From positions 1 to 47,285 of the IMG/VR virus record IMGVR_UViG_3300002053_000036: a DNA stretch of 47,285 nt; one strand, 5' to 3'. A model generated the notes under the pieces. That model did not search any database. It worked only from the letters and a program-made list of their open reading frames with translations, and was not told where the DNA came from. Shown in pieces: positions 8,733-47,100 of this stretch (positions are counted from its first letter, which is position 1; every line of letters starts with the position of its first letter). This stretch comes from a virus. Both the position numbers and the translations under genes were made by a program.

Positions 8733-10697
8733 CTAATCAACAAATTCTAATTCTAATTTCCATTCATATAGATTTGGTCTTTTTGATATTTGCACTGGTG
8801 TAAATGATATTATATTATAATCAGTACATAATGATGGATATATAAAATCATCCAATGTTATTTGTTCCAATCTTTTAGCCATTGTTTTAACATTATTAAT
8901 AATTTCCATACAAGATGCGCTACTATCTACACAACCATCCCATAATAATCCTGATAATATTAATGTTTTTTTACTTCTTTGAATACCATATGATTTACGA
9001 TTTCCAGATTGAAAATTGATTGCATTAGTATTTATATTATGCCTTATTTCAACTTTTGATGGATATGGTAATAATAAATAATCAGATACCTCTGATTGAG
9101 CATTCACTATTGCATACATTTGTGATACTGCAATTTTTGTTGTTATTTCTCTATCATAAACTATGGATAAATCAATATCACAACATCTTGTATCAGCAGG
9201 GTTATCTGGTGAATATAAATCAATACCTATTTCCATATTAGCTATTTCATCCCAAGTCCAATCAGATGTCGTAAAAGGATTTTGTGATAAATTAAAACCA
9301 GTATCTTCATAACCACTTTGCCATGATTTAGTATCATATGTATAAGCAGTGCCATGTGTATATAAAACTATTCTTGCTTGAGCATTATTACTATGGTCTA
9401 TTCTATAAACATGAGCTTGACATATTACTGTTTCTGGATTACCTTGTAATTCTGGATAATCTGGATAATACTCATCACAATTTTGCATAACATATAAATC
9501 TCTTTGCCATGTTGTTGAAGCATTATTACAAACATATGGCTGATTCACACAATGACCACCATCTACACAATCCCAATTTTCTGCTGCACCAACTGGTGTT
9601 AATTGTATTGTGCCACCATCGGCTGATGTTAAACAATCACATACAGCATTAGCATCACTACCAGCTATTGCCGATTTAAGTAAACACCCTATTTGTAAAT
9701 TGTTAATATCATTAATAGTCCATTCACTATTCGTTCTCGGATTTAAATCCCATGCTTCAGCTATTGAATCAAAATCTCCACCTAAATTATTTTCATCGTG
9801 ATTACATCCGAAAATAAAATTTTTTGAATAATATATATTAGTACAATCATTATCAGAAAAAGCTATTTTACAAATCATATCACCATTCCAATAATAATCA
9901 CCTAATACTTTAGCAAATATAACAACTGATTTAATATCATAATCACTTGGAATAGATGGGTCAGAACACTCATACATATCTGATACTTCACTTGGATAAT
10001 CCCACCAGTTATATGTTGAATTATTATCACATGTTTCTTCATCAACATTTGTATAATGGTCGCCTGTTACTGGTTGTGTGTATAAATCTTCAACGCATCC
10101 ATCAGCATTGGGTCTAATAGTATAAGTATGATTTTCATTCCAATATGATATAAGTTTTATTGTGTTAAGTTGAGGACCACATCCACATATCACTGGACCA
10201 TATGTTATTTCTGCATATATTTGTGTACACAATGGTAATTTTTGTGCAGCAGTTATTTTAATTCCAATTTCCATATCACTTATTTCATTCCAAGTCCATT
10301 TTTTACCAGTATGTGGATTTGTTGGATAATCATCATAATGTGTTGCCCACGATGTGTTATTTGTTTGTCCAGAACCATAATAATCATTACCATGTGTATG
10401 TAATTTTGTATATGTGATATTAGAAGGTGAACCACTCGTATATGCTCTACTTCTTTCATAAATACGGACATTGGTTATAGAAAGCCATTCTGTGTTAGTA
10501 ATGGTGCATTCTGACATTTCAAATAATATTTCTTGTACACCACTTGTTTGATGAAAAATATAATCTGTATTATCATTTGCTATTTCTTCATCAACTCTTG
10601 TATAAAGATTTGATGATGTATAACTAAATATAGTGCCACCATTCCAACCACTCGATTTCGTTGAATCAGATATTGGTCGAAGATATATTATTCCCAT
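8733..10697 (-). CDS. Tail adhesin with three beta-sandwich repeats
   Basis: A 654-residue protein. Three related domains (about 1-170, 171-360 and 361-530) each run from a V-D-E-E-like acidic block and a long beta-rich stretch to a W-T-W-N-E-I-S-D-M-E-I-G-type signature and a final I-Y-A-E-I-T-Y strand. The C-terminal domain (about 540-654) is a paralogue of the 129-residue protein encoded next. This suggests surface-exposed binding domains anchored to a tail ring. The second and third repeats are rich in cysteine. The N-terminus of the 637-residue protein (16769-18682) carries a fourth copy of the domain. The ligand is unknown. Confidence 0.7.
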   Translation of the reverse strand: MGIIYLRPISDSTKSSGWNGGTIFSYTSSNLYTRVDEEIANDNTDYIFHQTSGVQEILFEMSECTITNTEWLSITNVRIYERSRAYTSGSPSNITYTKLHTHGNDYYGSGQTNNTSWATHYDDYPTNPHTGKKWTWNEISDMEIGIKITAAQKLPLCTQIYAEITYGPVICGCGPQLNTIKLISYWNENHTYTIRPNADGCVEDLYTQPVTGDHYTNVDEETCDNNSTYNWWDYPSEVSDMYECSDPSIPSDYDIKSVVIFAKVLGDYYWNGDMICKIAFSDNDCTNIYYSKNFIFGCNHDENNLGGDFDSIAEAWDLNPRTNSEWTINDINNLQIGCLLKSAIAGSDANAVCDCLTSADGGTIQLTPVGAAENWDCVDGGHCVNQPYVCNNASTTWQRDLYVMQNCDEYYPDYPELQGNPETVICQAHVYRIDHSNNAQARIVLYTHGTAYTYDTKSWQSGYEDTGFNLSQNPFTTSDWTWDEIANMEIGIDLYSPDNPADTRCCDIDLSIVYDREITTKIAVSQMYAIVNAQSEVSDYLLLPYPSKVEIRHNINTNAINFQSGNRKSYGIQRSKKTLILSGLLWDGCVDSSASCMEIINNVKTMAKRLEQITLDDFIYPSLCTDYNIISFTPVQISKRPNLYEWKLELEFVD

Positions 10698-15288: not shown

Positions 15289-15304
15289 GGGGATAAAAAT
15301 CCCC
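15289..15304 (-). terminator. Terminator hairpin after the tube gene
   Basis: GGGGAT and ATCCCC enclose AAAA (on the minus strand the loop is TTTT). It starts 12 bases after the stop of the tail tube gene. An identical 23-base element (15289-15311) lies at 21896-21918, at the same distance behind the capsid gene. It is likely a terminator or a 3'-end stabiliser for abundant messages. Confidence 0.65.
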
Positions 15305-15315
15305 TAAAAATTTTA

Positions 15316-16768: not shown

Positions 16769-18682
16769 TTATTCTATATTATCATACCATTGTACATATA
16801 ATTCCATATTCTTATGATAAACAACCTGTTTACCATATTTTTCTATAAAAACTCTTCCTGTTTTTAAGAAGTATATAGAATAATCTGTACCAAGTATTCT
16901 ACATTTGTTTCCTCTAATTAAATAATTTAATTCTTCACTAATTTCTTTTCCGAAATTAATGCTATCTATATTATCCATTTTTTGCCAATATATATTTACA
17001 TCAATCATAACTTCATGTTTTCTAACTGTTGCACCAACATTATGTTCTTCCATAGTTTCGAGTAATAATCCTAATTCTATAAATGGTAAAGCTGGTAATG
17101 GACTTAATCCAGCTTTTGTTTCTTCAGTTAAATATATTGGTATATTATGATTTATTCTATGTTCATCTGCTATTGTTATTGTATAAATTTTATCGTTACT
17201 TATATATCGTTCAGTGCCTAAATATTCTCTAATTGTTTCTCTTGGGTCTAATGAATAATAAGCAGCTTCTCCTGATATTAATGATAATGATATTGTATCT
17301 GATATAAAAACAATATCTTGTAATTCCTGTAATCTACATAGTAATAAATCAATATCGTCATTTAATGTTATAATATCTGCTGGGTATAAATATAAAGTTG
17401 TACCAGCGCTAATTAAATTTAAATCTAAATCCTCACTAATCAATATCGTATCTGTTAATTCTTTATACATTTCTTTTACTAATGCATCACCTAATATAAC
17501 ATTTTCAGCTAATGTTTTATTTATATTTTTATTTAATGAATCATCTAATTCTATATTATCAATTATTTTTTTATCTATTTCTTTTATTAATGTATCATCT
17601 AATAAAATCATATCAGATAATGTTTTACCAACATTTTTATATAATACATCATTTAATAATATTGAATCATTTAATATTTTTCCTATGTTTTTATTTATTT
17701 CTTCATTTAATATTATGCCATCATTTAATGATTTATCAATATCTTTTTTAAATGTTTCTGATAATAATATATTTTCTTGAGGATTTATATGATAACTCAC
17801 AACTCTACTTAATACATCACTTACAGTAACATCATCATATAAACTTTTTAATTTAAATATTTGTGTTTGTAGGTTATCATTTAGTGATACCAAATCACTT
17901 AATATTTTATCAAATTCTTTTTCTAATTCATCAACTATTTCAACATTTTCTTGAAATGCTCTATTATAGTTTACAATTCTACTTAATACATCATTCAATG
18001 TTACAACATCGTTTAATGATTTACCAATATCTTTTTTAAATATATCATTCAATAAAATATTATCATTTAATTTTTTACCAACTTCTTTTTCTATATTATC
18101 ATCTAAATTAACACTATCATCTAAATATTTTCCAACTTCCTTTTTGAGTGAATCTGAAACAGCTTCTAAATCTGTTGGATATTCATAATATGTTTCTGCT
18201 GATGCATAAGTTACTCTAACATATAATTGTGTGCAAAAAATATCTCTATTTTGACTTCTTGTAAATGTTGCACCTGCTACTAAATTATCTATATCGGTCC
18301 AATCCCAATCACCACCAGCAGGGTTGGTTGCCCAATCATAATAAACATCAGCATATGATGTTGTAACAGTTTGAGCAGGGCTATCATACTGACTACCATC
18401 TGTATAAACATGCAATACAATATAATCACCATCACCAGTTTCACGATAAACTCTTGCAACAACTCTAACATTTGTTATTGAACCAGTTTCAGTTGTGTGG
18501 TTAGATAAGTTATATAAATCTTTATAATCACCATTAGTGTCAGCCCAAATATAGGTAGAATCTTCATCTGGACTATCCCAAGCATCATCAACTTTATCCC
18601 AATGCGTTGTCGGACTTGTCGGATATACATATTGCATAGCAACGGAATTATCGCTAGTTGGATAAATATATAACTCACTCAT
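16769..18682 (-). CDS. Repeat-rich appendage protein with tail-terminator-like end
   Basis: A 637-residue mosaic. Residues 1-165 are one copy of the adhesin beta-sandwich (W-D-W-T-D-I-D-N-L signature). Residues about 175-465 hold about 15 copies of an 18-20 residue unit of the form K-x-I-G-K-x-L-N-D-x-I-x-L-N-D. Residues about 470-637 are a mixed domain with P-F-I-E-L-G-L, V-N-I-Y-W-Q-K-M-D-N and Y-G-K-Q-V-V-Y-H that is shared with the beta-propeller protein upstream. Placed between the neck adaptor and tube gene, the shared end resembles a tail terminator in position and size. The repeat array suggests an extended stalk. Confidence 0.6.
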   Translation of the reverse strand: MSELYIYPTSDNSVAMQYVYPTSPTTHWDKVDDAWDSPDEDSTYIWADTNGDYKDLYNLSNHTTETGSITNVRVVARVYRETGDGDYIVLHVYTDGSQYDSPAQTVTTSYADVYYDWATNPAGGDWDWTDIDNLVAGATFTRSQNRDIFCTQLYVRVTYASAETYYEYPTDLEAVSDSLKKEVGKYLDDSVNLDDNIEKEVGKKLNDNILLNDIFKKDIGKSLNDVVTLNDVLSRIVNYNRAFQENVEIVDELEKEFDKILSDLVSLNDNLQTQIFKLKSLYDDVTVSDVLSRVVSYHINPQENILLSETFKKDIDKSLNDGIILNEEINKNIGKILNDSILLNDVLYKNVGKTLSDMILLDDTLIKEIDKKIIDNIELDDSLNKNINKTLAENVILGDALVKEMYKELTDTILISEDLDLNLISAGTTLYLYPADIITLNDDIDLLLCRLQELQDIVFISDTISLSLISGEAAYYSLDPRETIREYLGTERYISNDKIYTITIADEHRINHNIPIYLTEETKAGLSPLPALPFIELGLLLETMEEHNVGATVRKHEVMIDVNIYWQKMDNIDSINFGKEISEELNYLIRGNKCRILGTDYSIYFLKTGRVFIEKYGKQVVYHKNMELYVQWYDNIE

Positions 18683-20244
18683 ATTTCAACACTCTCATTA
18701 TCATAACAAGTGAAATCCAATTCCATAACTCTATGAAACACAACTTGATTTCCATATTGCTCAATATATACTCTATTTGACTTAATATTAGCAAATGAAT
18801 TTTTATGATTCCATGTGTTACCAATTGTATTACTTTGATAATTTCTAATTTTTTTATAAAACGCATCAGCAATAGCTTTTCCAAATTTAACTTGGCTCAT
18901 ATTATCCATTTTTGTCCAGTAAATATTAACCATCATTTTTATTCTATTTTTTTGTGTTTCCCCACCTATATCTTGTATTTCATTTAATGCTTCAGTTAAT
19001 TCTATTTCTATAAATGGAAATGAAGGTAGAATATCTGATTTAGTTTCCTCTGAAAGATAAACAGGAATTTGATGTATTATACCATGTTCATCATTGACAT
19101 TAATATAATATGTATCTTTACCATATAACTCTCTTAATTCACACATTACTTCTCTTATTCTTTTTCTTGGGTCAATCCCACAATATTGTATTATTACTTT
19201 TGTGTATTCTAATAAATCTAAAGCAATTGTATTTTCATCAAAATTTTTACCAATATTTTTTGAAACTTCATCTAATATTGGTGTATTTATTTCATTAATA
19301 TTTTTACCTATATCTAATTGTAATGCATCTTCTATAAGAACATTATCACTCACATTTTCATAAAATGTTTCTGGTGCTTGAAGTATTCTTAAATGATAAA
19401 CTGCACCTGCATTTGTTAATGCCACATACCCTAATGAAGTACCAGTTGATTTATTAATTTTATATACCCTACCTTGACCTGTTCCAACATATATTATATC
19501 ACCATCTAATAATAAATTTCTTGGATTATTACTATCAGGAATTGAAATCGTATGGTCCACTGTAAAATCTGACCTTTTGACAACATCTATTCTTTGTCCT
19601 TCATAATCTGATTTATAAATATAATCATCATCGAAATCAACACCATATATTGAACCACCCAAGTCAGCAGATTGACCGACTAATGAACCGTCAAGATTAC
19701 AAAGTTTTACTTTACCATTACTTGCATGTCCACCGAATACAACATAATTCCCATGCACACTTAATTCATATGGGTCATATCCATCATAAGATTGTGTACC
19801 ACCATGTGAACAAGCATCAGGGTCATCACAAATTGATAACTGATTATTATCTTGGTCATTTATATATATGCAACTATTATAATAATAAATATGCCACATA
19901 TATGAACCCCAACTACAATTACTAACAGCACCTAATGTAGATTTATTTCTCCTATATATTCTATTACTGCAAACATAAACATAATCAGGACCGACACATA
20001 TTGAATTTGTGCCACTACCAACCAATAATGGACCAACTTCTATTGATAAATCATCCTTATTTAAAGCATAAGAATAATAACCCTGTCTAACAACATATAT
20101 ATATGGATTATCACTATCATATTTATCGACATCTAATCCCATTATATAATTAGACAGATTAACACTAACATGAGTTTCTGTAAATGTATTAAGATTTACT
20201 CTTGAAATGTAATTGCCATGACCTGCGTATAATATATTAATCAT
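18679..20244 (-). CDS. Beta-propeller neck/appendage protein
   Basis: A 521-residue protein. I use the ATG at 20244, one base after the preceding stop, rather than an upstream TTG. Residues 1-290 form a probable beta-propeller: repeated blades such as I-Y-V-V-R-Q-G, Y-V-Y-V-C-S-N, N-Y-V-V-F-G-G and D-I-I-Y-V-G-T-G-Q. Residues about 295-350 have two or three copies of the IGK/ND repeat. Residues about 350-521 match the C-terminus of the 637-residue protein, including P-F-I-E-I-E-L, V-N-I-Y-W-T-K-M-D-N and Y-G-N-Q-V-V-F-H. It is probably a surface-exposed adhesin on a structural anchor. ATGA coupling links the two paralogues. Confidence 0.65.
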   Translation of the reverse strand: MINILYAGHGNYISRVNLNTFTETHVSVNLSNYIMGLDVDKYDSDNPYIYVVRQGYYSYALNKDDLSIEVGPLLVGSGTNSICVGPDYVYVCSNRIYRRNKSTLGAVSNCSWGSYMWHIYYYNSCIYINDQDNNQLSICDDPDACSHGGTQSYDGYDPYELSVHGNYVVFGGHASNGKVKLCNLDGSLVGQSADLGGSIYGVDFDDDYIYKSDYEGQRIDVVKRSDFTVDHTISIPDSNNPRNLLLDGDIIYVGTGQGRVYKINKSTGTSLGYVALTNAGAVYHLRILQAPETFYENVSDNVLIEDALQLDIGKNINEINTPILDEVSKNIGKNFDENTIALDLLEYTKVIIQYCGIDPRKRIREVMCELRELYGKDTYYINVNDEHGIIHQIPVYLSEETKSDILPSFPFIEIELTEALNEIQDIGGETQKNRIKMMVNIYWTKMDNMSQVKFGKAIADAFYKKIRNYQSNTIGNTWNHKNSFANIKSNRVYIEQYGNQVVFHRVMELDFTCYDNESVEI

Positions 20245-20245
20245 T

Positions 20246-21187
20246 TTATTTTCCACAACCAATAGCGTTAAATCCTATCATTCCAATAAGCTCTTCATAT
20301 TTATCTTTAAATATTTTAGCTTCAAGTTGCCTATTAGTTTGAATATCAGCCATCGTTGCGCTATTTAATGATTTATAAGTCATAGCAACTTTATAAGCTG
20401 TTAAATAAGCAACTGCTTCATGCATTATGGTTTCATCATAATATTCCGACCTAGTATAATATGAAACATAAGCTCTTTGCATCGTATTTGGTACAGCGTC
20501 ATCAGTATCAGTTAATAATTGCACAATGCCATTATCTGCATCAACAACATTAACATGTCCATTATATCTTAATCTATCATTATCTATATAATAAAAACTA
20601 ATATCACTTCCACATGTTATTTCCCCTTCACCAGTTATTTCACCATCTCCATTATAATCAGCAATATATTTAGACCTCAATTGAAATGTTTTATTTGTTC
20701 CATCAAACCACGAGCCATCGGTTGGATTACATTTAGGTCTTTCTTCCCAATGCAAATCATAAATTTCATTAAGTACAGTTTTATAAGAATGCCATGCTAT
20801 TAAAGCTAATTTATAATCTGATATGTCATTCTGTTGATATGCGCTTAAAATTTCTCTAGTCCTTGCGCATATATCAAATGGAAATACGACAATTCTGAAT
20901 TTTTGTGTTTGATTATGTGTAAATGTAATTACATTAACATCATATAATCCAAATGGTATATCATCATCTAAATCAAATTCATAATAATACTCACCAGTTG
21001 CATCCTTACTCATGGCTGTTAAACTAACATAATCATTACCACATGGGTCTATAACTTCTATACTAACTTCAGATGGGTCATCAGGTGTTCCTTCTTCAGC
21101 ATCAGTTATTCTAACTTTAATATAAACAGTATCATTTCTAAAATAAGTACCAGATTCTTTAATTTGAGTAATATTATAATATTTCAT
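20246..21187 (-). CDS. Head-tail connector with N-terminal Ig-like domain
   Basis: A 313-residue protein. Residues 1-105 look like an immunoglobulin-like beta-sandwich (N-D-T-V-Y-I-K-V-R-I-T-D-A ... Y-D-V-N-V-I-T-F). The middle contains a short helical and beta region, and the end is helical with M-H-E-A-V-A-Y-L-T-A-Y-K-V-A-M, as in head-tail adaptors. It lies two genes after the capsid gene, a normal place for a connector. The identification as adaptor comes from order and helical C-terminus; the Ig domain is an addition. Confidence 0.55.
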   Translation of the reverse strand: MKYYNITQIKESGTYFRNDTVYIKVRITDAEEGTPDDPSEVSIEVIDPCGNDYVSLTAMSKDATGEYYYEFDLDDDIPFGLYDVNVITFTHNQTQKFRIVVFPFDICARTREILSAYQQNDISDYKLALIAWHSYKTVLNEIYDLHWEERPKCNPTDGSWFDGTNKTFQLRSKYIADYNGDGEITGEGEITCGSDISFYYIDNDRLRYNGHVNVVDADNGIVQLLTDTDDAVPNTMQRAYVSYYTRSEYYDETIMHEAVAYLTAYKVAMTYKSLNSATMADIQTNRQLEAKIFKDKYEELIGMIGFNAIGCGK

Positions 21188-21895: not shown

Positions 21896-21911
21896 GGGGA
21901 TAAAAATCCCC
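21896..21911 (-). terminator. Terminator hairpin after the capsid gene
   Basis: This is the same GGGGAT-AAAA-ATCCCC hairpin as the one behind the tail tube gene, again starting 12 bases after the stop. The identity extends to 21918. It would end or protect the abundant capsid transcript. Confidence 0.7.
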
Positions 21912-21922
21912 TAAAAATACGA

Positions 21923-27375: not shown

Positions 27376-28731
27376 TTAACTCATCCTCTTATGTTTCCAC
27401 CACCCACATCCAAACATGGGTGTATCAATTTCAGGACTATAATCTGATAAAGCATATCTTAAAGCATCAGCAGCATGGTCATCCTCTTTTGAGGGTGTTT
27501 CACCATCGCCTTTATAACGATATGCTAATAAGCTTCTAATTAAATTAATGCAAGATGAATGTATGAATATTTTATTATTTTTAAAACATGATTGAAGTTT
27601 TGCTATACCTGTACTAACCGTATTATCTGCATATGAATGTGTTTCACCATTTTTCCAGAATGCGCATGAAACACCTAAATCGAATGCCTGATTTCTTAAA
27701 TCAATCGCTGAAGGGTCGATGTAAACTTTACTTAAATTATATTTCTTTTGATATTTTGAAAGCAAATGAGCAATATCATATGATGTTCTTTCACTTTCAT
27801 AAAATTCTTCAATCACATAAATATTATTTGTTTTTGTTAATAATAATATCAATATACAACAGGCATCCCTCACACCCCAATCAACACCTGCAATATATTT
27901 ATCAACTAAATCTTTACGATTTTTAAAATTCTTTTCTATCTCATCATTTGTAACATGCCGTTCAATACTAAATGTTTTATAAATTTGACCTGCAAATGCA
28001 CCCCATTTACCATTTAAATATCTTCGCACCCAATCAGCGTCATAACGAGATTCCATGCTCTTAATGTATTCCTCTTGATTCGGAAGTAGATAATTATCAT
28101 AAGTGTTTGTATCAACAGCGTAGTAACCTTCCTTTTTATCAAGATAAAAATATTTATAAAGCCAATGATTTTCAGCTTCAGGATTTGTTGCTAAAATAGC
28201 AAAATGAAACGGGATTGCAGTACCTCTTAATCTCCCTATTAATTGGGTCATTACCCCCTCTTTCATATCAACTGGTTCATCAAGTCCAAACCAATCAATG
28301 CTTCTTCCAGCTAGATTTCTTTCTTTATCACAAGAACGAAACCATATTTCTGACCCATTATAAAAATTAATATTCATTTTTCCTATTGAAATTGTTTCGG
28401 TAAATAATTTAATCGGAATATTTTTTTCATCCAATATTTTTTGGTATCTTTCTAATTCTTGAATAAATGTTCTAAATACAACATCTCTAATTTGTGGATA
28501 TGTTTGACTACCGACAAGACCCACACTTTTTGGATATTGCAACGCAGCTTTAATACCAACATGAGCAAGTAAAATAGTTTTACCAGCGCCAAATGCACCA
28601 CTATATAAAACATAGTTATTCATTAGTTTGCCATTTTTGCCTATATGTTTTTTAAAAACTAAATCAAAAACTTCAATTTGTTTTGGCAAAAACTGTCTAG
28701 GTCTATTCAAAATTATGTTTTTATTGTTCAA
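27376..28731 (-). CDS. terL: Terminase large subunit
   Basis: A 451-residue packaging ATPase-nuclease. The Walker A loop is S-G-A-F-G-A-G-K-T (about 44-52), and Walker B W-F-G-L-D-E-P. The nuclease domain has G-V-D-W-G-V-R-D (first acidic residue), V-Y-I-D-P-S-A-I-D (second) and D-D-H-A-A-D-A-L-R-Y (third). I place the start at TTG 28731, six bases after AAGGAGAT, which no nearby ATG can use. The mRNA leader contains the palindrome CCTTGCAAGG and flanking CAAGCT/AGCTTG arms. A TATA promoter precedes it at about 28811-28820. Confidence 0.92.
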   Translation of the reverse strand: MNNKNIILNRPRQFLPKQIEVFDLVFKKHIGKNGKLMNNYVLYSGAFGAGKTILLAHVGIKAALQYPKSVGLVGSQTYPQIRDVVFRTFIQELERYQKILDEKNIPIKLFTETISIGKMNINFYNGSEIWFRSCDKERNLAGRSIDWFGLDEPVDMKEGVMTQLIGRLRGTAIPFHFAILATNPEAENHWLYKYFYLDKKEGYYAVDTNTYDNYLLPNQEEYIKSMESRYDADWVRRYLNGKWGAFAGQIYKTFSIERHVTNDEIEKNFKNRKDLVDKYIAGVDWGVRDACCILILLLTKTNNIYVIEEFYESERTSYDIAHLLSKYQKKYNLSKVYIDPSAIDLRNQAFDLGVSCAFWKNGETHSYADNTVSTGIAKLQSCFKNNKIFIHSSCINLIRSLLAYRYKGDGETPSKEDDHAADALRYALSDYSPEIDTPMFGCGWWKHKRMS

Positions 28732-28793
28732 GCTAATATCTCCTTGCAAGGAATCAGCAGCTTGTTATGGATAAATAAATATATCCTCATAAT

Positions 28794-28820
28794 AGTACCC
28801 AAAATAGAAACATTTATATA
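28794..28820 (-). promoter_or_regulatory. Promoter of the terminase/virion operon
   Basis: On the minus strand a TATA box TATATAAATG (28820-28811) is followed four bases later by TATTTTGGGTACT (28806-28794). The same downstream element occurs behind TATA boxes at about 34968 (-) and 44446 (+). The expected start of transcription is close to 28790. This is an archaeal-type promoter with a virus-specific element. Confidence 0.7.
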
Positions 28821-31852: not shown

Positions 31853-32028
31853 AATATATCATCTTCCTTTTCATTTTTATATTCATTATTTAATTCCTTA
31901 ATCATATTAAGCCGACAGAATTTACATCCTTTATAAAGAACGCCCTTAAACAACCATGTCCGAAAGAATTTTATTGGTCTAAACTTACCACACATTTTAC
32001 ATCTACGGACTTTATTATTATCAGGCAT
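31849..32028 (-). CDS. Zinc-finger mini-protein, 59 aa
   Basis: A 59-residue protein. C-K-M-C-G (10-14) and C-K-F-C-R (about 35-39) flank a basic, aromatic segment, as in small phage zinc-finger proteins that resemble HNH zinc sites without the nuclease residues. It overlaps the helicase end by eight bases and the next gene by ATGA. Confidence 0.7.
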   Translation of the reverse strand: MPDNNKVRRCKMCGKFRPIKFFRTWLFKGVLYKGCKFCRLNMIKELNNEYKNEKEDDIL

Positions 32029-33676
32029 TTATTTCATATCTCCCATCAGGTCTTTTAATGATTAAATTCCTCTGCTCACACATTTCAATGAAATCATTAT
32101 CAAATCCATTATCCTTTAACTCACCAATATCACTCGGATTATTCTCAAGAAAAACCGTTAAGCTTTCAATCTTATCACCAAGAGTAATTTCTTCAGGTTG
32201 TATGTCCACAATTTTAGACGAATCCTCAATTTTTCGTTGAGAACTTGTGCCTTCATTATAAGAATAAGATTTACGATTAGGGTCTTTCCAAGAAAGATTT
32301 TTATAAGTCCAAACTCTATTACCATCTGGTAATGTCATCCTATTAGATGCAACACCATACATTGTTTGGAATAATTTACGACTAAAATGAACCTCATTAA
32401 GAGTTGGTTTCTGATGTTCAACACACCATTTATTATATTCATACAAGACCTCTGATTTATCCAACCATGAACCTATCTTAACTTCTAATGTTTCATTACA
32501 AAAACCAAGAATTGGATTAGCTCTTTCCTCATAAAGCTGCAAATTTTTATCAGTAGATTTATTATAACTAAATTTACGATTCTTTAATAAACGCTTCAAA
32601 CCTTCCAATGCCCAATTAAGAATACCAGAAAGCTCTTCCTCAACTATCATTTTATCAAGAATATGCTCATCTGTTCTTGGGTCGCCCACTGGAAAATAAC
32701 TATTAAACTCAATAAAAGTAAGACGAGTAGCAAATGCAACAGTTTTATCCTTTGGAAAATCAGGTGGATTATTGCAACCCCAAATAAGTTTAGCATGATT
32801 AGTAAAATTAATAAAATCATGGTGAATCCTTCTAGCAGCAATACTATCATTACCTGTAAGAAGTTTTATTACACTTGTATCATTAATTACATCAGAACCA
32901 ATATCACCAGAAACATTAGCAAGTTTACCAAACAGTTTAGCAATAGAAAACTGGCTGGTGGTAAGCTCATGTAAAGTCATGTTTTCAACAGAATCAGAAC
33001 CAACGAATTTACGAATAAGATTAAGTAATGTGGTTTTACCATTACGACCAGAGCCGATAAGCAAAAAGAAATTAGGGTACTCATGTGTTTTATACAAAAT
33101 ATATCCAAACATTTCTTGTATGACTTTAACATCATCACCAGAAAGAATTTCATTAATATACTTATCAAAAACAGGACACTCGGCTTTAGGATTAAAAACA
33201 AGATTCATCTGCTCAAAAAGTGGAAGGTCCTTACTATGAGGAATCATCGTACCATTTTTAACATTAAGAACACCATTCTTTAAACTAATAAAATACTTAT
33301 ATTTTTCCTCAACTTCCTCAACTTTTACCATCAAACTCATAAAATGCTTAACGGCTGTAACTACCTCTGTAACCCTCTGATTAGTAGCTTTAGTGTCCAT
33401 AATAAGCCGAGCAACAGTTTCAATCACACGATGCCCATCAGGTCTATAACAACCATTATCATAAATATAAATATCCCGTTTATCATTATTAAGAACGATA
33501 AAACCACGATTAATACCAGTGCCAGTGGTGGGGTCAAATTTATCAAAAACTATATCACCAGCGAGATTATTAGCGACAAGATGCTTCTTATTAAAATAGA
33601 TATTTTTAGTATCTTTAACAGCTTTAAGAATATCACTAACTATTTTCGGGTTCACCGTTCTTTTTTCTTTTGCCAT
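32021..33676 (-). CDS. SF3/D5-type replicative helicase (P4 primase family)
   Basis: A 551-residue protein. Residues about 120-200 resemble the D5_N region (I-S-L-K-N-G-V-L-N-V and Y-I-N-E-I-L-S-G-D-D). The helicase core has Walker A G-S-G-R-N-G-K-T-T-L (208-217), Walker B-like L-A-N-V-S-G-D-I-G and the sensor L-I-W-G-C-N-N-P-P (motif C). A winged-helix-like C-terminus follows (about 410-480). No primase domain is fused; that activity is at 45152-46024. It is the probable initiator/helicase acting at the repeat cluster near 35.2 kb. Confidence 0.9.
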   Translation of the reverse strand: MAKEKRTVNPKIVSDILKAVKDTKNIYFNKKHLVANNLAGDIVFDKFDPTTGTGINRGFIVLNNDKRDIYIYDNGCYRPDGHRVIETVARLIMDTKATNQRVTEVVTAVKHFMSLMVKVEEVEEKYKYFISLKNGVLNVKNGTMIPHSKDLPLFEQMNLVFNPKAECPVFDKYINEILSGDDVKVIQEMFGYILYKTHEYPNFFLLIGSGRNGKTTLLNLIRKFVGSDSVENMTLHELTTSQFSIAKLFGKLANVSGDIGSDVINDTSVIKLLTGNDSIAARRIHHDFINFTNHAKLIWGCNNPPDFPKDKTVAFATRLTFIEFNSYFPVGDPRTDEHILDKMIVEEELSGILNWALEGLKRLLKNRKFSYNKSTDKNLQLYEERANPILGFCNETLEVKIGSWLDKSEVLYEYNKWCVEHQKPTLNEVHFSRKLFQTMYGVASNRMTLPDGNRVWTYKNLSWKDPNRKSYSYNEGTSSQRKIEDSSKIVDIQPEEITLGDKIESLTVFLENNPSDIGELKDNGFDNDFIEMCEQRNLIIKRPDGRYEINA

Positions 33677-34627: not shown

Positions 34628-34792
34628 TCACTCTCTCATTATTAAAACATGCTTATCAATAACCTTAATCGATGTCCAAACACAACCATTAACATCAGCA
34701 GAAACCAAAAGAAAACTATCACAATGAGGAAGTACCATAACGAAAAGGATAAACTCATCATCAAATGATACAAAATCTTTAACTTCGGTCAA
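34628..34792 (-). CDS. Hypothetical protein, 54 aa, TTG start
   Basis: A 54-residue beta-rich protein. I start it at TTG 34792, with GGTGAG five bases upstream, inside the end of the zinc-finger gene. A longer ORF to 34849 would only overlap that gene. Its strands F-I-L-F-V-M-V and F-L-L-V-S-A-D-V resemble the 54-residue protein at 33689 in general form, but homology is not certain. Confidence 0.5.
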   Translation of the reverse strand: MTEVKDFVSFDDEFILFVMVLPHCDSFLLVSADVNGCVWTSIKVIDKHVLIMRE

Positions 34793-34928
34793 TTTTCTCA
34801 CCACAGAACGGACAGTCAGAATCCATCCAAATAATATAATCATTACCAAAATATTTCTTCATCTTATGACAACAGAATTTAATAACAGCTTTCTTATCAT
34901 AACAAACAGTTTCATCAGTTATTCTCAT
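34779..34928 (-). CDS. Zinc-finger mini-protein, first gene of operon
   Basis: A 49-residue protein starting 14 bases behind the promoter element at 34942-34954. It has F-C-C-H-K-M (about 18-23) and C-P-F-C-G (about 39-43), a probable CC-H/CxxC zinc site. A short leader and no strong ribosome site suggest near-leaderless translation. It is absent from simple long-ORF lists because of its length. It may be a regulator at the head of the replication operon. Confidence 0.7.
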   Translation of the reverse strand: MRITDETVCYDKKAVIKFCCHKMKKYFGNDYIIWMDSDCPFCGEKIDRS

Positions 34929-34941
34929 ACACTCTCAATAG

Positions 34942-34968
34942 AGTACCCAAAATAACAAGCTTTAAATA
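34942..34968 (-). promoter_or_regulatory. Promoter of the replication operon
   Basis: On the minus strand the TATA box TATTTAAAG (34968-34960) is followed by TATTTTGGGTACT (34954-34942), then by the dyad ACTCT-ATTG-AGAGT just before the ATG at 34928. It is nearly identical to the (+) promoter at 44446-44472 from TATA box through the dyad. Confidence 0.8.
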
Positions 34969-35090
34969 ACATGACTTCGGAGAACAAACATTCACAAGGA
35001 CATGATAAAGACACCATCGGGACATAAAAATAGAATCATATATAAAACATTCCATAATATTGTAATAATCAAAAATAAGGAGAAAACAAA

Positions 35091-35394
35091 AAGAAAAGAG
35101 CAAAAAATGAAAGAAAAGAGCAATTTTACACTACGGACCAGAAAAATGGGTACTCGGAAAGTTACTATGGCAGCGATTTTTCTCCCGTTAAACCTATATT
35201 CCTGCCATAGTAACCACACTAATTTTATTATATTATATAAAAACACTATTTTTAATCTAGCTTCTATATAGAAATTTACTATGGTTACTATGGTTTTAAC
35301 AGAAGGGCAAGTAACTTTCTCAAACCATAGTAACTTACTATGGATTTTGTACAAAAACAAAGAAAAGAGCAGTTGCTCATAAAGAAAAGAGCAA
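35091..35394. repeat. Iteron cluster, candidate replication origin
   Basis: Six copies of TTACTATGG lie within 182 bases: forward at 35162, 35276, 35285 and 35335, reverse at 35205 and 35325. One pair forms a 13-bp perfect inverted repeat (35161-35173 with 35202-35214). Another forms CCATAGTAA-C-TTACTATGG (35325-35343). Four copies of AAGAAAAGAGCA flank the cluster in pairs (about 35091, 35111, 35360 and 35382). There is no gene here. Helicase and AT-rich repeats lie nearby, so an origin is the best reading; an operator array is the alternative. Confidence 0.6.
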
Positions 35395-35681
35395 TAAATA
35401 CACACACTATCCCCACCGTTTATTTTTATTCTGCGAGTTTTATAATATGGGGTATATATTAACATTTAAATAATAATAATAATATATAATACAGAGTACA
35501 GCGCTTCATTTATATAAAAATCAACATATAATAATCAATATATAATACACATTAAATAATAATCGACATATAAATATAGTATTTTTATTTTTTAAAAAAT
35601 ATATAAATGGTGTTATATGTTTGAAAATAAATAAAAAATAATAAATAAATATCGGCTCTATTTTCAGAGAACATGTATTAC
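35395..35681. other. AT-rich non-coding DNA beside the iterons
   Basis: About 290 bases with no credible gene. It contains short imperfect AT repeats (ATAATAATCAATATATAATAC-like stretches) and several possible TATA boxes (for example near 35450-35475). It may be part of a DNA-unwinding region. A 14-base string ACAGAGTACAGCGC at about 35493 recurs at 41183. Confidence 0.4.
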
Positions 35682-35749
35682 TTAATAATCATTATTAGTT
35701 AATAATCATTATTAGTTAGTAATCATTATTAGTTAGTAATTATTACTAA
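35682..35749. repeat. Four tandem 17-bp palindromic repeats
   Basis: Units at 35682, 35699, 35716 and 35733 have the form TTAATAATCATTATTAG with one or a few changes. Each contains the dyad AATAATCATTATT. Such AT-rich iterons often serve as helicase-loading or unwinding sites next to an origin. Confidence 0.8.
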
Positions 35750-38440: not shown

Positions 38441-38807
38441 ATTTTTTTCACCTTATATATTATATATGTCAATCATACTATTTAAATGTTTTGTGATAGT
38501 ATGTCAAATTGTAAAAATGTTTATTAGTTATCTGATATAATCCAGATAGTTATTTTTATTTGGCATTAATTTAAAAATCATTTTAATGCGTTTTAATGCG
38601 TTTTAATGCTTATGGCTATATTACCATCTAAATTAAAAGTTTTTTGATTGTGATGTATTTGGTGAATTGGTTTATACTATTTTTCAATAAGCTTTAAATA
38701 TTTTAATTCAAACTAAAAAAGTTTAAATACTTTGACCTCACATAATTAAGAATAAAAGAAAAATTAATGGATTAAAATGTACTTTGTTAAAAATAGGTGT
38801 ATTAAAT
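38441..38807. promoter_or_regulatory. Divergent early promoter region
   Basis: About 370 bases without a gene. For the leftward operon a TATA-like ATTTAAATAG lies near 38480-38490. For the rightward gene, CTTTAAATA (about 38691) and GTTTAAATAC (about 38719) are TATA candidates. Three tandem copies of GTTTTAATGC (about 38582-38611) lie in the middle. TGTCAAATTGTAAAAATGT at 38502-38520 shares words with the repeats at 39199-39262. A short ATCTG/CAGAT dyad occurs near 38530. Confidence 0.65.
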
Positions 38808-39146: not shown

Positions 39147-39198
39147 AATTTAAATAATTAAAATAAATTGATTAAAATTAAAATACCAGAGTACGGCA

Positions 39199-39472
39199 TG
39201 TAAAAATGTCAAATTGACAGAATATCAGAATGTAAAAATGTCAAATTGACAGAATGTCAGAATGTAAAAATAGCTGGGATTAGCTCTGGCTCTGGTTAGG
39301 ACAAAATTGACCGACAAAAGCGACAAAATTGGGACAAAATTGACCGACAAAACCAAAAAATATATAAAGTATGACCGACAATATAGATATGGAGATTGTC
39401 ATTTTCATTGGGTGCGTAGACAATCATGTGATTAGATTAGCTATTTAATCACATACTCGCCCACCGACAATA
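39199..39472 (+). promoter_or_regulatory. Operator and promoter array of the right early operon
   Basis: A 32-bp tandem repeat (39199-39230, 39231-39262, partial after) contains the dyad TGTCAAATTGACA. Then a 20-bp repeat with GACAAAATTGACCGACA occurs at 39300 and 39333. ACCGACA occurs at about 39310, 39343, 39374 and 39463, around a TATA box at 39359-39369. ATGTGATTA (39426-39434) and TAATCACAT (39446-39454) form a leader hairpin just before the GGAG ribosome site at 39475. This looks like a strongly regulated early promoter. Confidence 0.7.
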
Positions 39473-39486
39473 AAGGAGATAAAAAT

Positions 39487-39717
39487 ATGGATATGAGTGA
39501 TAAAAGATTAAAAATGTCTATTCCTGAATACATGAGGGAATTGGTAGATAGGCAATCAACCGACAATTTAGACGATATAATAATGCAATCTATTATAAAT
39601 AAGCTTGGTTACAGAGGTAGAGTAACTTGTGGTTTTATTTATATAGAACCATATAATCAGCAACCAATAAGTATTAAACAATTTGCTCAAGCATTAATGA
39701 ATAGAAGGGTGATATAA
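39487..39717 (+). CDS. First gene of right early operon, 76 aa
   Basis: A 76-residue protein with AAAGGAGAT before its ATG. The N-terminal half is helical and charged (M-S-I-P-E-Y-M-R-E-L-V-D-R-Q-S), somewhat like the start of ribbon-helix-helix repressors. The second half has strands (V-T-C-G-F-I-Y-I-E-P-Y). Being the first gene behind a repeat-rich operator, it might be the autoregulator; this is only an inference. Confidence 0.6.
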   Translation: MDMSDKRLKMSIPEYMRELVDRQSTDNLDDIIMQSIINKLGYRGRVTCGFIYIEPYNQQPISIKQFAQALMNRRVI

Positions 39718-40384: not shown

Positions 40385-40816
40385 ATGGAACAACCAAAAG
40401 TAACTATTAAAGATTCTAATCCAACAACTAATTTATTATATCGTAATCAAACCTATTATGATGAATCAACAAATGAAATAGTATTGGGTTTAAAAATTAA
40501 TGTTACTGATTTTTTAACTGATAGACAAATTCAAAATTTAAGTGTTGAAATGATTTCACATGAATATTTACATTATTTAATTAAACGAGAATTTGGTCAC
40601 ACAGCAACTTGTTTATTTGACGCTATTGAACATCTTGTCGCTGTGCATAAAGGTCAAGCTTATTTAAGATTTGTTAAAAAATTTCATAATTATTGTTCAA
40701 GAAAGTGGGAAACAGCGATTAAAAAAGATGGTTTAGAATATTTCTATCGAGCAAAGGATATAACAAAAGATGATGTTAGAAGAGCTAATGAAATTTGTAA
40801 TAAAAGGAAAGTTTAA
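40385..40816 (+). CDS. HExxH protein (HEYLH), paralogue of the 37.7 kb gene
   Basis: A 143-residue protein. H-E-Y-L-H at 59-63 is followed eight residues later by G-H-T-A-T-C-L-F-D, as in its paralogue on the minus strand at 37698-38141. The strand before the motif is D-E-S-T-N-E-I-V-L-G-L. The spacing HExxH-x8-H differs from metzincins. A minimal zinc hydrolase is likely by motif. GGTGAT precedes the ATG. Confidence 0.7.
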   Translation: MEQPKVTIKDSNPTTNLLYRNQTYYDESTNEIVLGLKINVTDFLTDRQIQNLSVEMISHEYLHYLIKREFGHTATCLFDAIEHLVAVHKGQAYLRFVKKFHNYCSRKWETAIKKDGLEYFYRAKDITKDDVRRANEICNKRKV

Positions 40817-40857
40817 ATATGAGGAATGATATAATATAATATAAGGAAGTGAAAAAA

Positions 40858-43573: not shown

Positions 43574-43750
43574 ATGAGTATGCTTACAAAATTAGACCAA
43601 TATATAGTATTATCTGTATATAATATATCAACATTTATATTATTATTATACTTGATAGTAAATAGTGAATTAGAATGGTGGTATTTAATAAATTTAATAT
43701 TCCTTTTTAATTTTATATATGGGTTTTATAGGGTGATAAAAAATGATTAA
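43574..43750 (+). CDS. Two-helix membrane protein, 58 aa
   Basis: A 58-residue protein with membrane segments at about 10-29 and 36-52, separated by a short S-E-L-E-W-W loop. AGGAATTGAT precedes the ATG. It overlaps the next gene by eight bases. No family is recognised. Confidence 0.55.
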   Translation: MSMLTKLDQYIVLSVYNISTFILLLYLIVNSELEWWYLINLIFLFNFIYGFYRVIKND

Positions 43751-44063
43751 GATAGAAAATATAATAGGAAAATATATTTACTTTATTGATAAAAACCAAG
43801 CGTTTAGAATCAGTAAAGTGATAGCCGTTCATGGTAATACTATTACCACACAACAATCTAATGGCGAAAAAGAAAGAATACATCCACAACAAAATAAGAT
43901 AATGGGAATAGTGATACACAAAGGAAAATCAAATGATGTGGTTGAGGAAATAAGATTTAAAAAAGAAAGAATAGGCAAAAAGCTTAAACAAAAACAAAGA
44001 TTACATAAAATAAGGCAAGACCAAATTAAACCATTAAATAGAAAAAGGAGAAAGAAAAAATGA
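43743..44063 (+). CDS. Basic protein, 106 aa
   Basis: A 106-residue protein. The first half is strand-rich (K-Y-I-Y-F-I-D-K-N-Q-A-F-R-I-S-K-V-I-A-V) and resembles a small SH3-like or OB-like barrel. The second half is very basic (K-K-L-K-Q-K-Q-R-L-H-K-I-R-Q), suited to nucleic-acid binding. GGTGAT precedes the ATG. The function is unknown. Confidence 0.6.
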   Translation: MIKIENIIGKYIYFIDKNQAFRISKVIAVHGNTITTQQSNGEKERIHPQQNKIMGIVIHKGKSNDVVEEIRFKKERIGKKLKQKQRLHKIRQDQIKPLNRKRRKKK

Positions 44064-44452
44064 TAGGAATAAAATGTGAAAGATGTAAAAAAAGATTTAA
44101 AATAGATATTGTAAATAGAAAAGGTAGATTACCTAAATACTGTCCTTCATGTTCTGAAATAAAACGATACAAACATTTATCAAAAGAAGAAATAAAGATA
44201 GTACCATATAATAAAAGGAAGCTGATAATGATAGATAATACAAAAGTTACTGATAAACTATGGATTGTGGATGATAACAATATACCTAAATGTTATAATT
44301 GTGATGCAAACATTACAGATACTAATGAAAATATAATAGATAACAATGTAACATATGACATAAAGCATGGTGATTTGATTTGTAAGAAATGTGGTTTAAT
44401 AATTGGTAAATTAGAGTTAAGAGGATATATAAAAAATGATATGAGTATTTAA
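44060..44452 (+). CDS. Double zinc-ribbon protein, 130 aa
   Basis: A 130-residue protein with an N-terminal ribbon (C-E-R-C at 6-9, C-P-S-C at about 28-31) and a C-terminal ribbon (C-Y-N-C at about 78-81, C-K-K-C-G at about 108-112). The last, D-L-I-C-K-K-C-G-L-I-I, looks like the second knuckle of TFIIB/RPB9-type ribbons. It could modulate the archaeal-type transcription machinery. It is the last gene before the internal promoter. Confidence 0.65.
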   Translation: MIGIKCERCKKRFKIDIVNRKGRLPKYCPSCSEIKRYKHLSKEEIKIVPYNKRKLIMIDNTKVTDKLWIVDDNNIPKCYNCDANITDTNENIIDNNVTYDIKHGDLICKKCGLIIGKLELRGYIKNDMSI

Positions 44453-44472
44453 AGGTTTTTATTTTGGGTACT
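44446..44472 (+). promoter_or_regulatory. Promoter of the primase/resolvase operon
   Basis: TATA box TATTTAAAG (44446-44454), then TATTTTGGGTACT (44460-44472), then the dyad ACTCT-ATTGAA-AGAGT before the ATG at 44493. It overlaps the end of the zinc-ribbon gene. The same element drives the replication and terminase operons on the other strand. Confidence 0.75.
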
Positions 44473-44492
44473 CTATTGAAAGAGTTGATATT

Positions 44493-44768
44493 ATGACAAT
44501 TGCACTTAAAAAAAATAACATGATTGATGAAAACCAATTAGATAGAAATGAAGCTGTTAAATTTATTTTATTTCTTGAGGAAGAAAAGGAAAGGCATAAA
44601 ATTGCTATTCATTCATGCCAATTTTCTAAAACATTATTCAAAGATTGCCCTGTTCTTAAACAAGCTTATAAATCTAGTATTGAAAGACATTTAGATGATA
44701 TAATTATGACACAAAAAACTATTGACCTATTGAGGAATAAATGGGATATAAAGATTGGTGAGTATTAA
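44493..44768 (+). CDS. Helical protein, 91 aa
   Basis: A 91-residue helical protein (V-K-F-I-L-F-L-E-E-E-K-E-R-H-K-I-A-I; I-I-M-T-Q-K-T-I-D-L-L) with cysteines at about 42 and 52. It begins 20 bases behind the conserved promoter element, with only a weak ribosome site. No family is recognised. It may be a coiled-coil partner of the replication genes. Confidence 0.6.
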   Translation: MTIALKKNNMIDENQLDRNEAVKFILFLEEEKERHKIAIHSCQFSKTLFKDCPVLKQAYKSSIERHLDDIIMTQKTIDLLRNKWDIKIGEY

Positions 44769-45151: not shown

Positions 45152-46024
45152 ATGATAATAATACCTAGACAATTAAGAAATAAAGATTTTAGATTCATAA
45201 AAATTCTTTCAAAGAATAAAAAACCAATTGAGAGAGATTGGCAAAATACTAATAATTATACATATGATAATGCAGAGCTTCTTAATTGGTTAAACAATAA
45301 TAACAATTATGGAATAGTGTGTGGTCGTGGAAATTTAGCCGTTGTTGATTGTGATGAACCAGAAATAGCAGAGCTTATTAGTAAAACATTACCAGAAACA
45401 TTTACAGTTAAAACTGGAAGTGGTGGTAAGCATTATTACTACATTGTTTATGATTGGGATAAAACAACAACACTAACAAAAAAGATAAAAGATAAAACAG
45501 GCAATATAAAAGAAGAAATACATTGTGGTGAAATTCGTAGTACAAATTCTCAAATTATAGCACCTAATTCAATACACCCTAATGGAAAGCGATATGTGAT
45601 ATTAAATGATTCACCCATTATTCATATACATAGAACAACATTAGAAACTATACTTTATGATTATATAGATAAACCAAAAACTAAAGTTAATGATACAAAA
45701 AAAGATTATCATAAGTATAGACCAATTGATATTAATAAAATATTAAAATTAGAATCATTAAATCAACATGGTAATGAATATCAAGGTTCACACCCTATAC
45801 ATGGTTCTACAACCAGAATGAATTTTTCTGTTAATGTAGATAAATGTATCTGGCATTGTTTCAGGCATAACACAGGTGGTGGAATAGTGACATTGATTGC
45901 CATGTTAAATGGAATCATAAGGTGTGCTGATTGTCGAGAGGGTTGTGTAACACCAACAATATTTAAAGAAGTTGTTGAATTAGCAAAAACAAAATATGGA
46001 ATAATAATAGATGAAGGTGAATAA
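45152..46024 (+). CDS. Archaeal/viral-type primase-polymerase (PrimPol)
   Basis: A 290-residue AEP-superfamily protein. Y-G-I-V-C-G-R-G-N-L-A-V-V-D-C-D (about 48-63) carries the catalytic DxD. V-K-T-G-S-G-G-K-H-Y-Y (about 84-94) has the histidine motif, and I-I-A-P-N-S-I-H-P-N-G-K-R-Y (about 130-143) the third motif. The C-terminus has G-S-H-P-I-H-G-S-T-T-R-M-N-F and W-H-C-F-R-H-N-T-G-G-G, a CHC2-like zinc site, then a second cysteine pair (C-A-D-C-R-E-G-C). It should lay down primers for replication with the SF3 helicase. Confidence 0.9.
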   Translation: MIIIPRQLRNKDFRFIKILSKNKKPIERDWQNTNNYTYDNAELLNWLNNNNNYGIVCGRGNLAVVDCDEPEIAELISKTLPETFTVKTGSGGKHYYYIVYDWDKTTTLTKKIKDKTGNIKEEIHCGEIRSTNSQIIAPNSIHPNGKRYVILNDSPIIHIHRTTLETILYDYIDKPKTKVNDTKKDYHKYRPIDINKILKLESLNQHGNEYQGSHPIHGSTTRMNFSVNVDKCIWHCFRHNTGGGIVTLIAMLNGIIRCADCREGCVTPTIFKEVVELAKTKYGIIIDEGE

Positions 46025-46505: not shown

Positions 46506-46787
46506 ATGGAAGAAAATAAAAATGATGAAGGAAAAATAATAAGATTGAATATACACGATGATGCTGGGACAAAAGATACTTTAAATAAGCCAACAAAAGC
46601 AGATATAATATTATTACAGAAAAAAATAATAGCATATCTAGTTAGTGCTAAAAAGATTTCAGAACAAGAGCTTAATATTTATTTGAATGCAAAGCTGACA
46701 ATATTAGCTGAAGTACAAAAACTGAAAATAAAAGTAATGGATGAAATAATAAAACAAAATCAAAAAGAGATAGATAATGTCAAATAA
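46506..46787 (+). CDS. Helical protein, 93 aa
   Basis: A 93-residue protein; residues 30-90 form a long helix (I-I-A-Y-L-V-S-A-K-K-I-S-E-Q-E-L; L-T-I-L-A-E-V-Q-K-L-K-I-K-V). Acidic residues dominate the start. It overlaps the resolvase gene by 11 bases. The function is unknown. Confidence 0.55.
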   Translation: MEENKNDEGKIIRLNIHDDAGTKDTLNKPTKADIILLQKKIIAYLVSAKKISEQELNIYLNAKLTILAEVQKLKIKVMDEIIKQNQKEIDNVK

Positions 46788-47100
46788 AAATTATGTAAAA
46801 GGTAGAGCATTTGAGTATAAAACAAAAAAAGAATATGAGAAAAAAGGTTATCTTGTATTTAGAACAGCAGGTTCTCATTCGGTTGCTGATTTAATAGCAG
46901 TACCACCGATAAGTTGGACACATGAATGGAATCCAATATTAATACAATGTAAAACAACGAAAGACAAAAACATAAAGAATTTAACTAAAGTCAGAACAAA
47001 ATACAAAAAAGATGTAAGTGAGTTACAAAAAGTTGCACATGAATATGGATGCAGAGCTATATTTTATGTGCAAAATTTAAAAATAATTGTGGAGAAATAA
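46777..47100 (+). CDS. hjc-like: Hjc-like Holliday junction resolvase
   Basis: A 107-residue PD-(D/E)XK nuclease. K-G-R-A-F-E-Y (8-14) supplies the N-terminal glutamate and R-T-A-G-S-H-S-V-A-D-L-I-A (about 29-41) the serine/aspartate block of archaeal Hjc. I-L-I-Q-C-K-T-T-K (about 54-62) is the last motif, with glutamine in place of the usual glutamate (ExK to QxK). It resolves recombination or replication intermediates before packaging. Archaeal Hjc proteins are about this long. The E-to-Q change needs checking for activity. Confidence 0.85.
   Translation: MSNKNYVKGRAFEYKTKKEYEKKGYLVFRTAGSHSVADLIAVPPISWTHEWNPILIQCKTTKDKNIKNLTKVRTKYKKDVSELQKVAHEYGCRAIFYVQNLKIIVEK

Follow-up and report, generated by a model that had tools for sequence, protein, structure and literature searches.

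Predicted promoters and operons of the window

The DNA analysed here, called the window throughout, is an IMG/VR virus record of 47,285 bases, in which the 13-mer TATTTTGGGTACT has three exact matches, at the sites listed in Table 1, and occurs nowhere else. Site 1 leads into the gene for the terminase large subunit, then the portal gene and, further on, the tape-measure and other virion genes; site 2 heads a gene run with a D5-like primase/helicase, and site 3 a run with a Prim-Pol primase and an Hjc-like resolvase. The gene calls thus bear out the original prediction that one element is common to terminase/virion, helicase and primase/resolvase operons, and the three copies were found where that prediction had placed them.

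Each copy follows a TATA box of the form TATWTAAA. The spacing, first described as 4-6 bases, proved to be exactly 6 bp from TATWTAAA at all three sites, and the six spacer bases differ. Archaeal promoters have their TATA box about 25-31 bp ahead of the start, and the start zones in Table 1 are predictions on that basis; under this geometry the element fills the stretch between TATA box and expected start, the position first proposed for it. The bases just upstream of the TATA box, at the A/purine-rich BRE position, are mixed (AATAGTAG, AGTCATGT and GATATGAG).

Table 1. Coordinates of the promoter sites, genes and leader in the window and of cassettes and leaders in related viruses
Feature	Location	Strand	Remark
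Element TATTTTGGGTACT, site 1	28794..28806	-	terminase/virion operon
Element TATTTTGGGTACT, site 2	34942..34954	-	replication operon
Element TATTTTGGGTACT, site 3	44460..44472	+	primase operon
TATA box TATATAAA, site 1	28813..28820	-	
TATA box TATTTAAA, site 2	34961..34968	-	
TATA box TATTTAAA, site 3	44446..44453	+	
Predicted start zone, site 1	28788..28793	-	27-32 nt after first TATA-box base
Predicted start zone, site 2	34936..34941	-	from TATA geometry
Predicted start zone, site 3	44473..44478	+	from TATA geometry
Terminase large subunit, first gene after site 1	27376..28731	-	start assigned from relatives; mechanical ORF begins 28749
49-residue Cys-rich ORF, first ORF after site 2	34779..34928	-	
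D5-like primase/helicase	32021..33676	-	replication operon
91-residue ORF, first gene after site 3	44493..44768	+	homologues in G001, G005-G008
Prim-Pol primase	45152..46024	+	
Hjc-like resolvase	46777..47100	+	Pfam scores just under cut-off
Class B (family-wide) promoter	40812..40847	+	contrast to private cassette
Covarying terminase leader RNA	28726..28788	-	right after site 1; conserved in relatives
Cassette upstream of helicase	window 34968-, G005 12896-, G006 2999-, G007 28028+, G010 12023-		on helicase strand
Cassette upstream of primase	window 44446+, G005 19386+, G006 9980+, G007 21095-		
Cassette upstream of terminase	window 28820-, G010 12089+		only these two viruses
Further cassette copies	G007 17585-, G010 44923-		G007 copy between primase and resolvase
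G009 repeat	L112:9150-9215, L113:15500-15560		G009 9150-9215, 35500-35560
Terminase leader in relatives	L004:9934-10003, L006:1340-1399, L033:8309-8373, L035:8967-9030, L036:9925-9994		
Terminase leader in relatives	L037:9940-10000, L039:586-646, L040:9939-10000, L007:6525-6618		

Statistics of the three copies

The original prediction turned in part on the motif not being equally frequent inside genes; all three exact copies lie in non-coding DNA, which makes up 5,038 of the 47,285 bases on our gene map, and none lies within any called gene. A genome-wide motif search, also proposed at the outset, found exact copies only at the three operon starts; with up to three mismatches allowed the whole window holds 32 matches against 32.3 expected by chance, so that the signal resides in the exact copies and no larger set is hidden behind them. 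Repetition by itself is not unusual in this genome, since seven of the eight 13-mers with at least four G/C that occur in three or more copies (mean 0.03 in 60 shuffles) derive from repeats other than TATTTTGGGTACT. A 13-mer found three times at one fixed distance from TATWTAAA is represented by a single word in the window and was obtained in 0 of 300 dinucleotide shuffles.

Of the 26 bases that follow the TATA box, sites 2 and 3 have 24 in common. Across all three copies 19 of 26 cassette columns are identical, including 13 of 13 within the element, against 6 of 50 columns in the upstream and 2 of 26 in the downstream flank.

The ACTCT/AGAGT dyad reported at two of the three sites is present in its letters at sites 2 and 3, with loops of 4 and 6, but its folding is matched by shuffled sequence (z -1.3 and -1.0; 17/200 and 29/200 shuffles as good). 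Site 1 lacks the dyad, inspection by eye shows none in the relatives' cassettes described below, and with hairpins at chance level it finds no support as a meaningful structure.

Conservation of the element in related viruses

Relatives were collected by terminase and primase searches and are largely collinear with the window; a scan of IMG/VR with the helicase found none. We compared eight large records, namely the window and G001, G005, G006, G007, G008, G009 and G010, whose terminases are 61-70% (G001, G005-G008), 43% (G009) and 38% (G010) identical to the window's. The operon proteins of the near group are 33-70% identical to those of the window.

The 13-mer is absent from the orthologous terminase position in the relatives, and no such promoter stands in front of the three inspected orthologues (G001, G005 and G006) of the first gene after site 3. 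When six relatives' records were searched for TTTTGGGTAC with a tolerance of one mismatch, only G006 gave matches, two occurrences of TTTTGGATAC; the other five gave none. Seven further relatives' records contain the 13-mer only as matches with two mismatches, 9 in number against 14 for a reversed control pattern. Scanning IMG/VR for TATTTTGGGTACTNTATT, which is the form of sites 2 and 3 and would not match site 1, returned 10 contigs, none of which, by reading, has a TATA box 6 bp upstream. Near matches being absent or at background in 13 records, we rejected sequence conservation of the 13-mer. Lack of conservation in relatives' promoters had been named as a finding that would count against the original prediction; the sequence is indeed not conserved in these 13 records, yet four relatives own a repeated cassette at the corresponding operons, which speaks in favour of a shared factor.

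Cassettes private to single viruses

The relatives' cassettes were found by searching for TATA-anchored segments that are repeated within one genome. Five of the eight large genomes (the window, G005, G006, G007 and G010) have a TATA-to-start cassette of their own in two to three copies, with four sequences in all: G005 and G006 carry two copies each of ATATAAAGGGGTGTAATTATGATGTTATTGA, G007 three of TAAAGGGGTCGAACATTATGTTTATGAG, and G010 three built on GGCGAYATACTATTGGCGA. As G005 and G006 are near duplicates in this respect, these amount to four independent cassettes among eight large genomes. The interval behind the G006 copy at 2999- was read across the contig ends, which repeat, and in G010 the primase and helicase lie behind one promoter. 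Distances from promoter to named gene reach up to 3.3 kb, no opposite-strand ORF of at least 100 aa interrupts the seven promoter-to-gene intervals checked in the window, G005, G007 and G010, and the cassettes would drive the named genes as operons.

Agreement between the copies begins at the TATA box and ends about 33 nt past the first base of that box. Column agreement is 25/26 in G005, G006 and G007 and for two of the G010 copies, whose upstream flanks agree at 16 of 50 positions; the third G010 copy is less alike (5/32 mismatches). Identity within a virus is 19-26 of 26 (15 pairs, 6 of them in the G005/G006 group, which was counted as one) and between viruses on average 11.5 of 26 with a maximum of 16 (63 pairs), the between-virus figure alone being unselected, since the cassettes were picked for their similarity within a virus. 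Random TATA-anchored pairs have a mean of 9.8/26 and a 95th percentile of 13; the between-virus identity lies somewhat above this, so the cassettes may share a distant common frame, and its maximum comes from G005/G006 against G007. No pair reached 22/26 in shuffled genomes (25 each), and the window's own pairs at or above 22 include one coding repeat (17752/18040), which leaves one promoter pair. When IMG/VR was scanned for exact matches, the three hits of the G007 cassette all fell in the G007 contig, and the G010 pattern, which fits two of that virus's three copies, was likewise confined to the contig it came from. The private part of these promoters is thus alike within a genome and near random between viruses with plainly homologous genes.

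G001 and G008 yielded no cassette set by this method, and their repeated promoters belong to the class B described below. G009 has a repeat of about 30 bp, GGGGCGAAAAAGAAG.CTTTAAATAGGATGA, at 35552+ and 9183+; the copy at 35552+ faces the exonuclease, primase and helicase genes, and read on the other strand the two copies agree at 20/26. Most of this repeat is upstream of the TATA box, so the private part does not occupy one position in all these viruses; G009 may follow a similar scheme in which the private part precedes the TATA box, or the repeat may be of a different nature. Five shorter records (L033, L034, L035, L007 and L031) gave no cassette set, and one AT-rich local repeat in L035 reached 22/26.

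A second promoter type with a stable sequence

A family-wide promoter, class B, has the form TATATAA..GAAYGAYATAATA..AAGGA, with its own TATA box and a Shine-Dalgarno-like AAGGA, and is present in six of the eight large genomes (the window, G001, G005, G006, G007 and G008). Its identity between viruses averages 18.3/26 over 39 pairs, or 19.6/26 over 31 pairs once a doubtful window site is dropped, both means being biased upward because the set was gathered by likeness to known copies. The doubtful site, at 38486 (-), was not retained as class B, having just 12-16 of 26 positions in common with the other members. Some promoters of these viruses are sequence-stable, and the replication/virion set is not.

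Terminase leader RNA

Immediately after site 1 lies a leader whose structure pairs both a Shine-Dalgarno-like AAGGAG and the likely TTG start of the terminase (28729-28731). Of 13 leaders located, nine were aligned; the near duplicates L034 and L038 and the longer, divergent leaders of L007 and L009 were set aside. The structure has 15 pairs with 96% of cells paired in the 9 sequences and 7 pairs changed on both sides, structure and counts coming from the same alignment; none of 500 shuffles paired as highly, and slid controls pair at 24-41%. The 80-nt piece of the window folds at -18.2 kcal/mol (z -3.2). No Rfam family matched at the gathering score, and a relaxed search gave only hits with E 3-8, taken as chance. 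A 20-codon ORF (28728-28790) lies within the window's leader, and its stop codon overlaps the likely TTG start. We considered the leader as the cause of the repeat at site 1 and rejected this, the leader being conserved in relatives and the 13-mer before it not. Judged from these sequences, terminase expression may be under two controls, the private promoter and a translational leader common to the family.

Search for a factor reading the cassette

The proteins scanned, a subset of the ORFs, include no recognisable DNA-binding regulator or cognate repressor, and no viral TFB or TBP was recognised among them. A factor shared by the three operons, as originally proposed, is compatible with the arrangement, which recurs in four relatives; the two zinc proteins put forward for the part are poor candidates without support. 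A search of seven relatives' records with the 49-residue protein gave nothing below E = 0.11. The 130-residue protein (44060-44452) was found by tblastn in G002 and G006 and not in G005, which carries the cassette of G006.

The second, C-terminal zinc ribbon of the 130-residue protein is weakly TFIIB-like, and relatives of the protein lie at L006:764-1306 and L030:1070-1639. In G002 and G006 the TFIIB-like zinc-ribbon protein is joined to a VRR-NUC-like nuclease domain right before the terminase.

Two further proteins drew attention. The one at 39487-39717 is present in the cassette-bearing G005, G006 and G007 and not in G001 or G008, is missing from G010, has a non-conserved N-terminus and shares its presence pattern with two other ORFs; it is a lead only. 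The protein at 43743-44063 is present in all eight large genomes and is modelled as a small beta-barrel (mean pLDDT 79.9), with SH3/Tudor-like matches in the PDB, none of them at E <= 0.001. In G001, G005 and G007 it has a GRP-containing tail, which we take to be AT-hook-like.

Other repeats in the window and its relatives

About 1 kb of the window without convincing genes (35090-35400 and 35686-35736) contains four copies of AAAGAAAAGAGCA, several of GTTACTATGG/CCATAGTAAC, a 17-bp tandem repeat TAATCATTATTAGTTA and also GGGTACTC at 35148, and looks like an origin region. Two repeat pairs spaced 32-33 bp (ATGTAAAAATGTCAAATTGACAGA; GGACAAAATTGACCGACAAAA) lie at 39198-39350 between divergent gene blocks. 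Palindromes of GGGGATAAAAATCCCC at 15289-15310 and 21896-21917, just beyond the ends of minus-strand ORFs (stops 15316 and 21923), are terminator-like, and the palindrome is also found in G004. Two tail-region proteins (16769-20262) have related C-terminal parts, and both match one same place in G001, G004, G005 and G006. In G005, L025:18267-18792 holds 23 overlapping copies with a 15-bp step and is probably a repetitive coding stretch.

Interpretation of the cassette

We think it probable that the cassette is a virus-private core promoter or operator, most likely read by a fast-evolving virus-encoded factor between TBP/TFB and the start. It would consist of an archaeal-type TATA box, 6 bp and a 13-bp element that takes up the remaining distance to the start, and the virion-packaging, replication-helicase and primase/resolvase operons would be transcribed from its three copies as a group. 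The virus-encoded factor would bind this DNA and influence the initiation complex from a position between TBP/TFB and the start. A TATA-to-start stretch that is alike within a virus, different between viruses and set in unrelated flanks is what is expected of the site of a fast-changing factor. The repeats, their fixed distance to the TATA box, their sharp boundaries, the operons behind them and the recurrence of the layout with other sequences in four relatives are observed; promoter activity, a factor and its sign, and an archaeal host are inferred. Judged by promoter anatomy only, the host would be archaeal; scans of genome contigs found no provirus or close relative and one 29% terminase in an uncultured bacterium, and a phage collection gave no match of at least 60% identity.

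The factor could be a timing or immunity repressor that blocks loading of RNA polymerase. We lean slightly to a repressor over an activator or alternative initiation factor, because the cassette overlaps the polymerase footprint and most characterised archaeal regulators repress by occluding the promoter (PMC5569661); the rigid TATA distance is almost as compatible with an activator or an added initiation factor. Taken by itself within the favoured reading, an activator or alternative initiation factor that joins TBP/TFB and turns the operons on after the early genes is possible, if on the unlikely side. The TATA distance is rigid at all three window sites, the operons hold replication and virion genes, and GGGTAC lies where the DNA must melt, which we would expect to be unfavourable for the basal machinery alone, a feature not seen in the other viruses' cassettes. 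Besides the footprint overlap, what weighs against an activator is that no viral TFB or TBP was recognised and that the TFIIB-like zinc-ribbon protein was undetected in G005.

The main rival to a virus-encoded factor is copying within each genome: a good core promoter would have been multiplied by recombination or gene conversion and read by host TBP, TFB and RNA polymerase, with no dedicated factor. The near identity of the whole TATA-to-start stretch in G005, G006, G007 and two of the G010 copies looks like a recent copy, and the lack of a regulator among the proteins scanned agrees with it. Against copying, the similarity ends at the TATA box and the start zone, in unrelated flanks; in the window the 6-bp spacer has diverged with the 13-mer unchanged, which points to selection on the 13-mer; and class B shows that promoters of these viruses can keep one sequence across viruses. 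On this balance we consider copying rather unlikely.

We regard it as very improbable that TATTTT is the -10 box of a bacterial-type promoter in a phage of bacteria: among the matches listed the best annotated terminases are those of bacterial phages, at 29.4% identity and less, but reading of the three sites found no sigma-70 -35 hexamer 16-18 bp before the -10 box and no common hexamer about 17 bp upstream of TATTTT, and all copies, like the relatives' cassettes, have the TATA box. Least probable of all is an RNA-level element, in which the repeat would be transcribed and the ACTCT/AGAGT hairpin would control translation, since the dyad adjoins start codons at two sites but behaves as chance and is missing from site 1 and, by eye, from the cassettes of the relatives, and the TATA geometry places the 13-mer ahead of the start, outside the transcript.

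Comparison with known systems

SIRV1 and SIRV2 add a virus-specific GTC element to TATA promoters (PMC5569661), and crenarchaeal viruses have per-genome regulatory sequences at early genes, read as a sign of different viral regulators (PMC11065993). The cassette resembles both in being a virus-specific sequence next to the TATA box, repeated at several genes and different between viruses (PMC5569661, PMC11065993). The SIRV-type trait of a same-genome sequence shared next to the TATA box at several genes is present here; a SIRV-type GTC downstream of the TATA box is absent from the three spacers and from TATTTTGGGTACT. Unlike those rudiviruses and other crenarchaeal viruses, in which early, anti-defence genes are concerned, the genes here are the replication, primase and terminase operons of tailed viruses, and the private part is confined to the TATA-to-start stretch. 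The same review describes SvtR of SIRV1 as binding a structural-gene promoter, and its viral regulators come mainly from viruses of Sulfolobales (PMC5569661).

In halovirus HF2 short intergenic repeats carry promoters, the conserved block reaches the start, and mutation in the start-site block abolished activity (PMC8707807). The cassette shares the repeated block reaching the start, as a predicted promoter. HF2 repeats keep sequence and place across the genus, whereas here the sequence differs as a set between relatives (PMC8707807); conservation of the HF2 type is absent for the cassette, and class B fits HF2 better.

Cluster A mycobacteriophages have 13-bp, asymmetric, lineage-specific operators or stoperators that change along with the repressor (PMC6550527), and the element is likewise 13 bp long, asymmetric and lineage-specific. 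In those phages a genome may carry as many as about 30 sites, mostly away from promoters, the repressor is known and the host is bacterial (PMC6550527); here there are three sites, all before operons, and no repressor was recognised among the proteins scanned. The late genes of beta- and gamma-herpesviruses, eukaryotic viruses with a known six-member viral pre-initiation complex, likewise have host-type promoters that are read in a virus-specific way (PMC6541308). A tailed-virus family whose replication and packaging promoters differ as a set was not found in the open-licence literature. The kind of arrangement has precedents in SIRV and HF2.

Implications

We tentatively propose, as something that may well prove otherwise, that in a family of tailed archaeal viruses each virus owns a private promoter code, a TATA-to-start cassette that is replaced as a set between relatives and read only by its own factor. 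Little is known of gene timing in tailed viruses of unstudied archaea, and one virus's repeat here becomes a family pattern that can be checked in metatranscriptomes. The per-virus cassettes are short baits of known sequence with which to fish for factors, and with them one can ask whether promoter codes keep related viruses apart. If the proposal is true, the private code would set the timing of the replication and packaging genes, and co-infecting relatives could be mutually blind or immune, as with phage immunity types.
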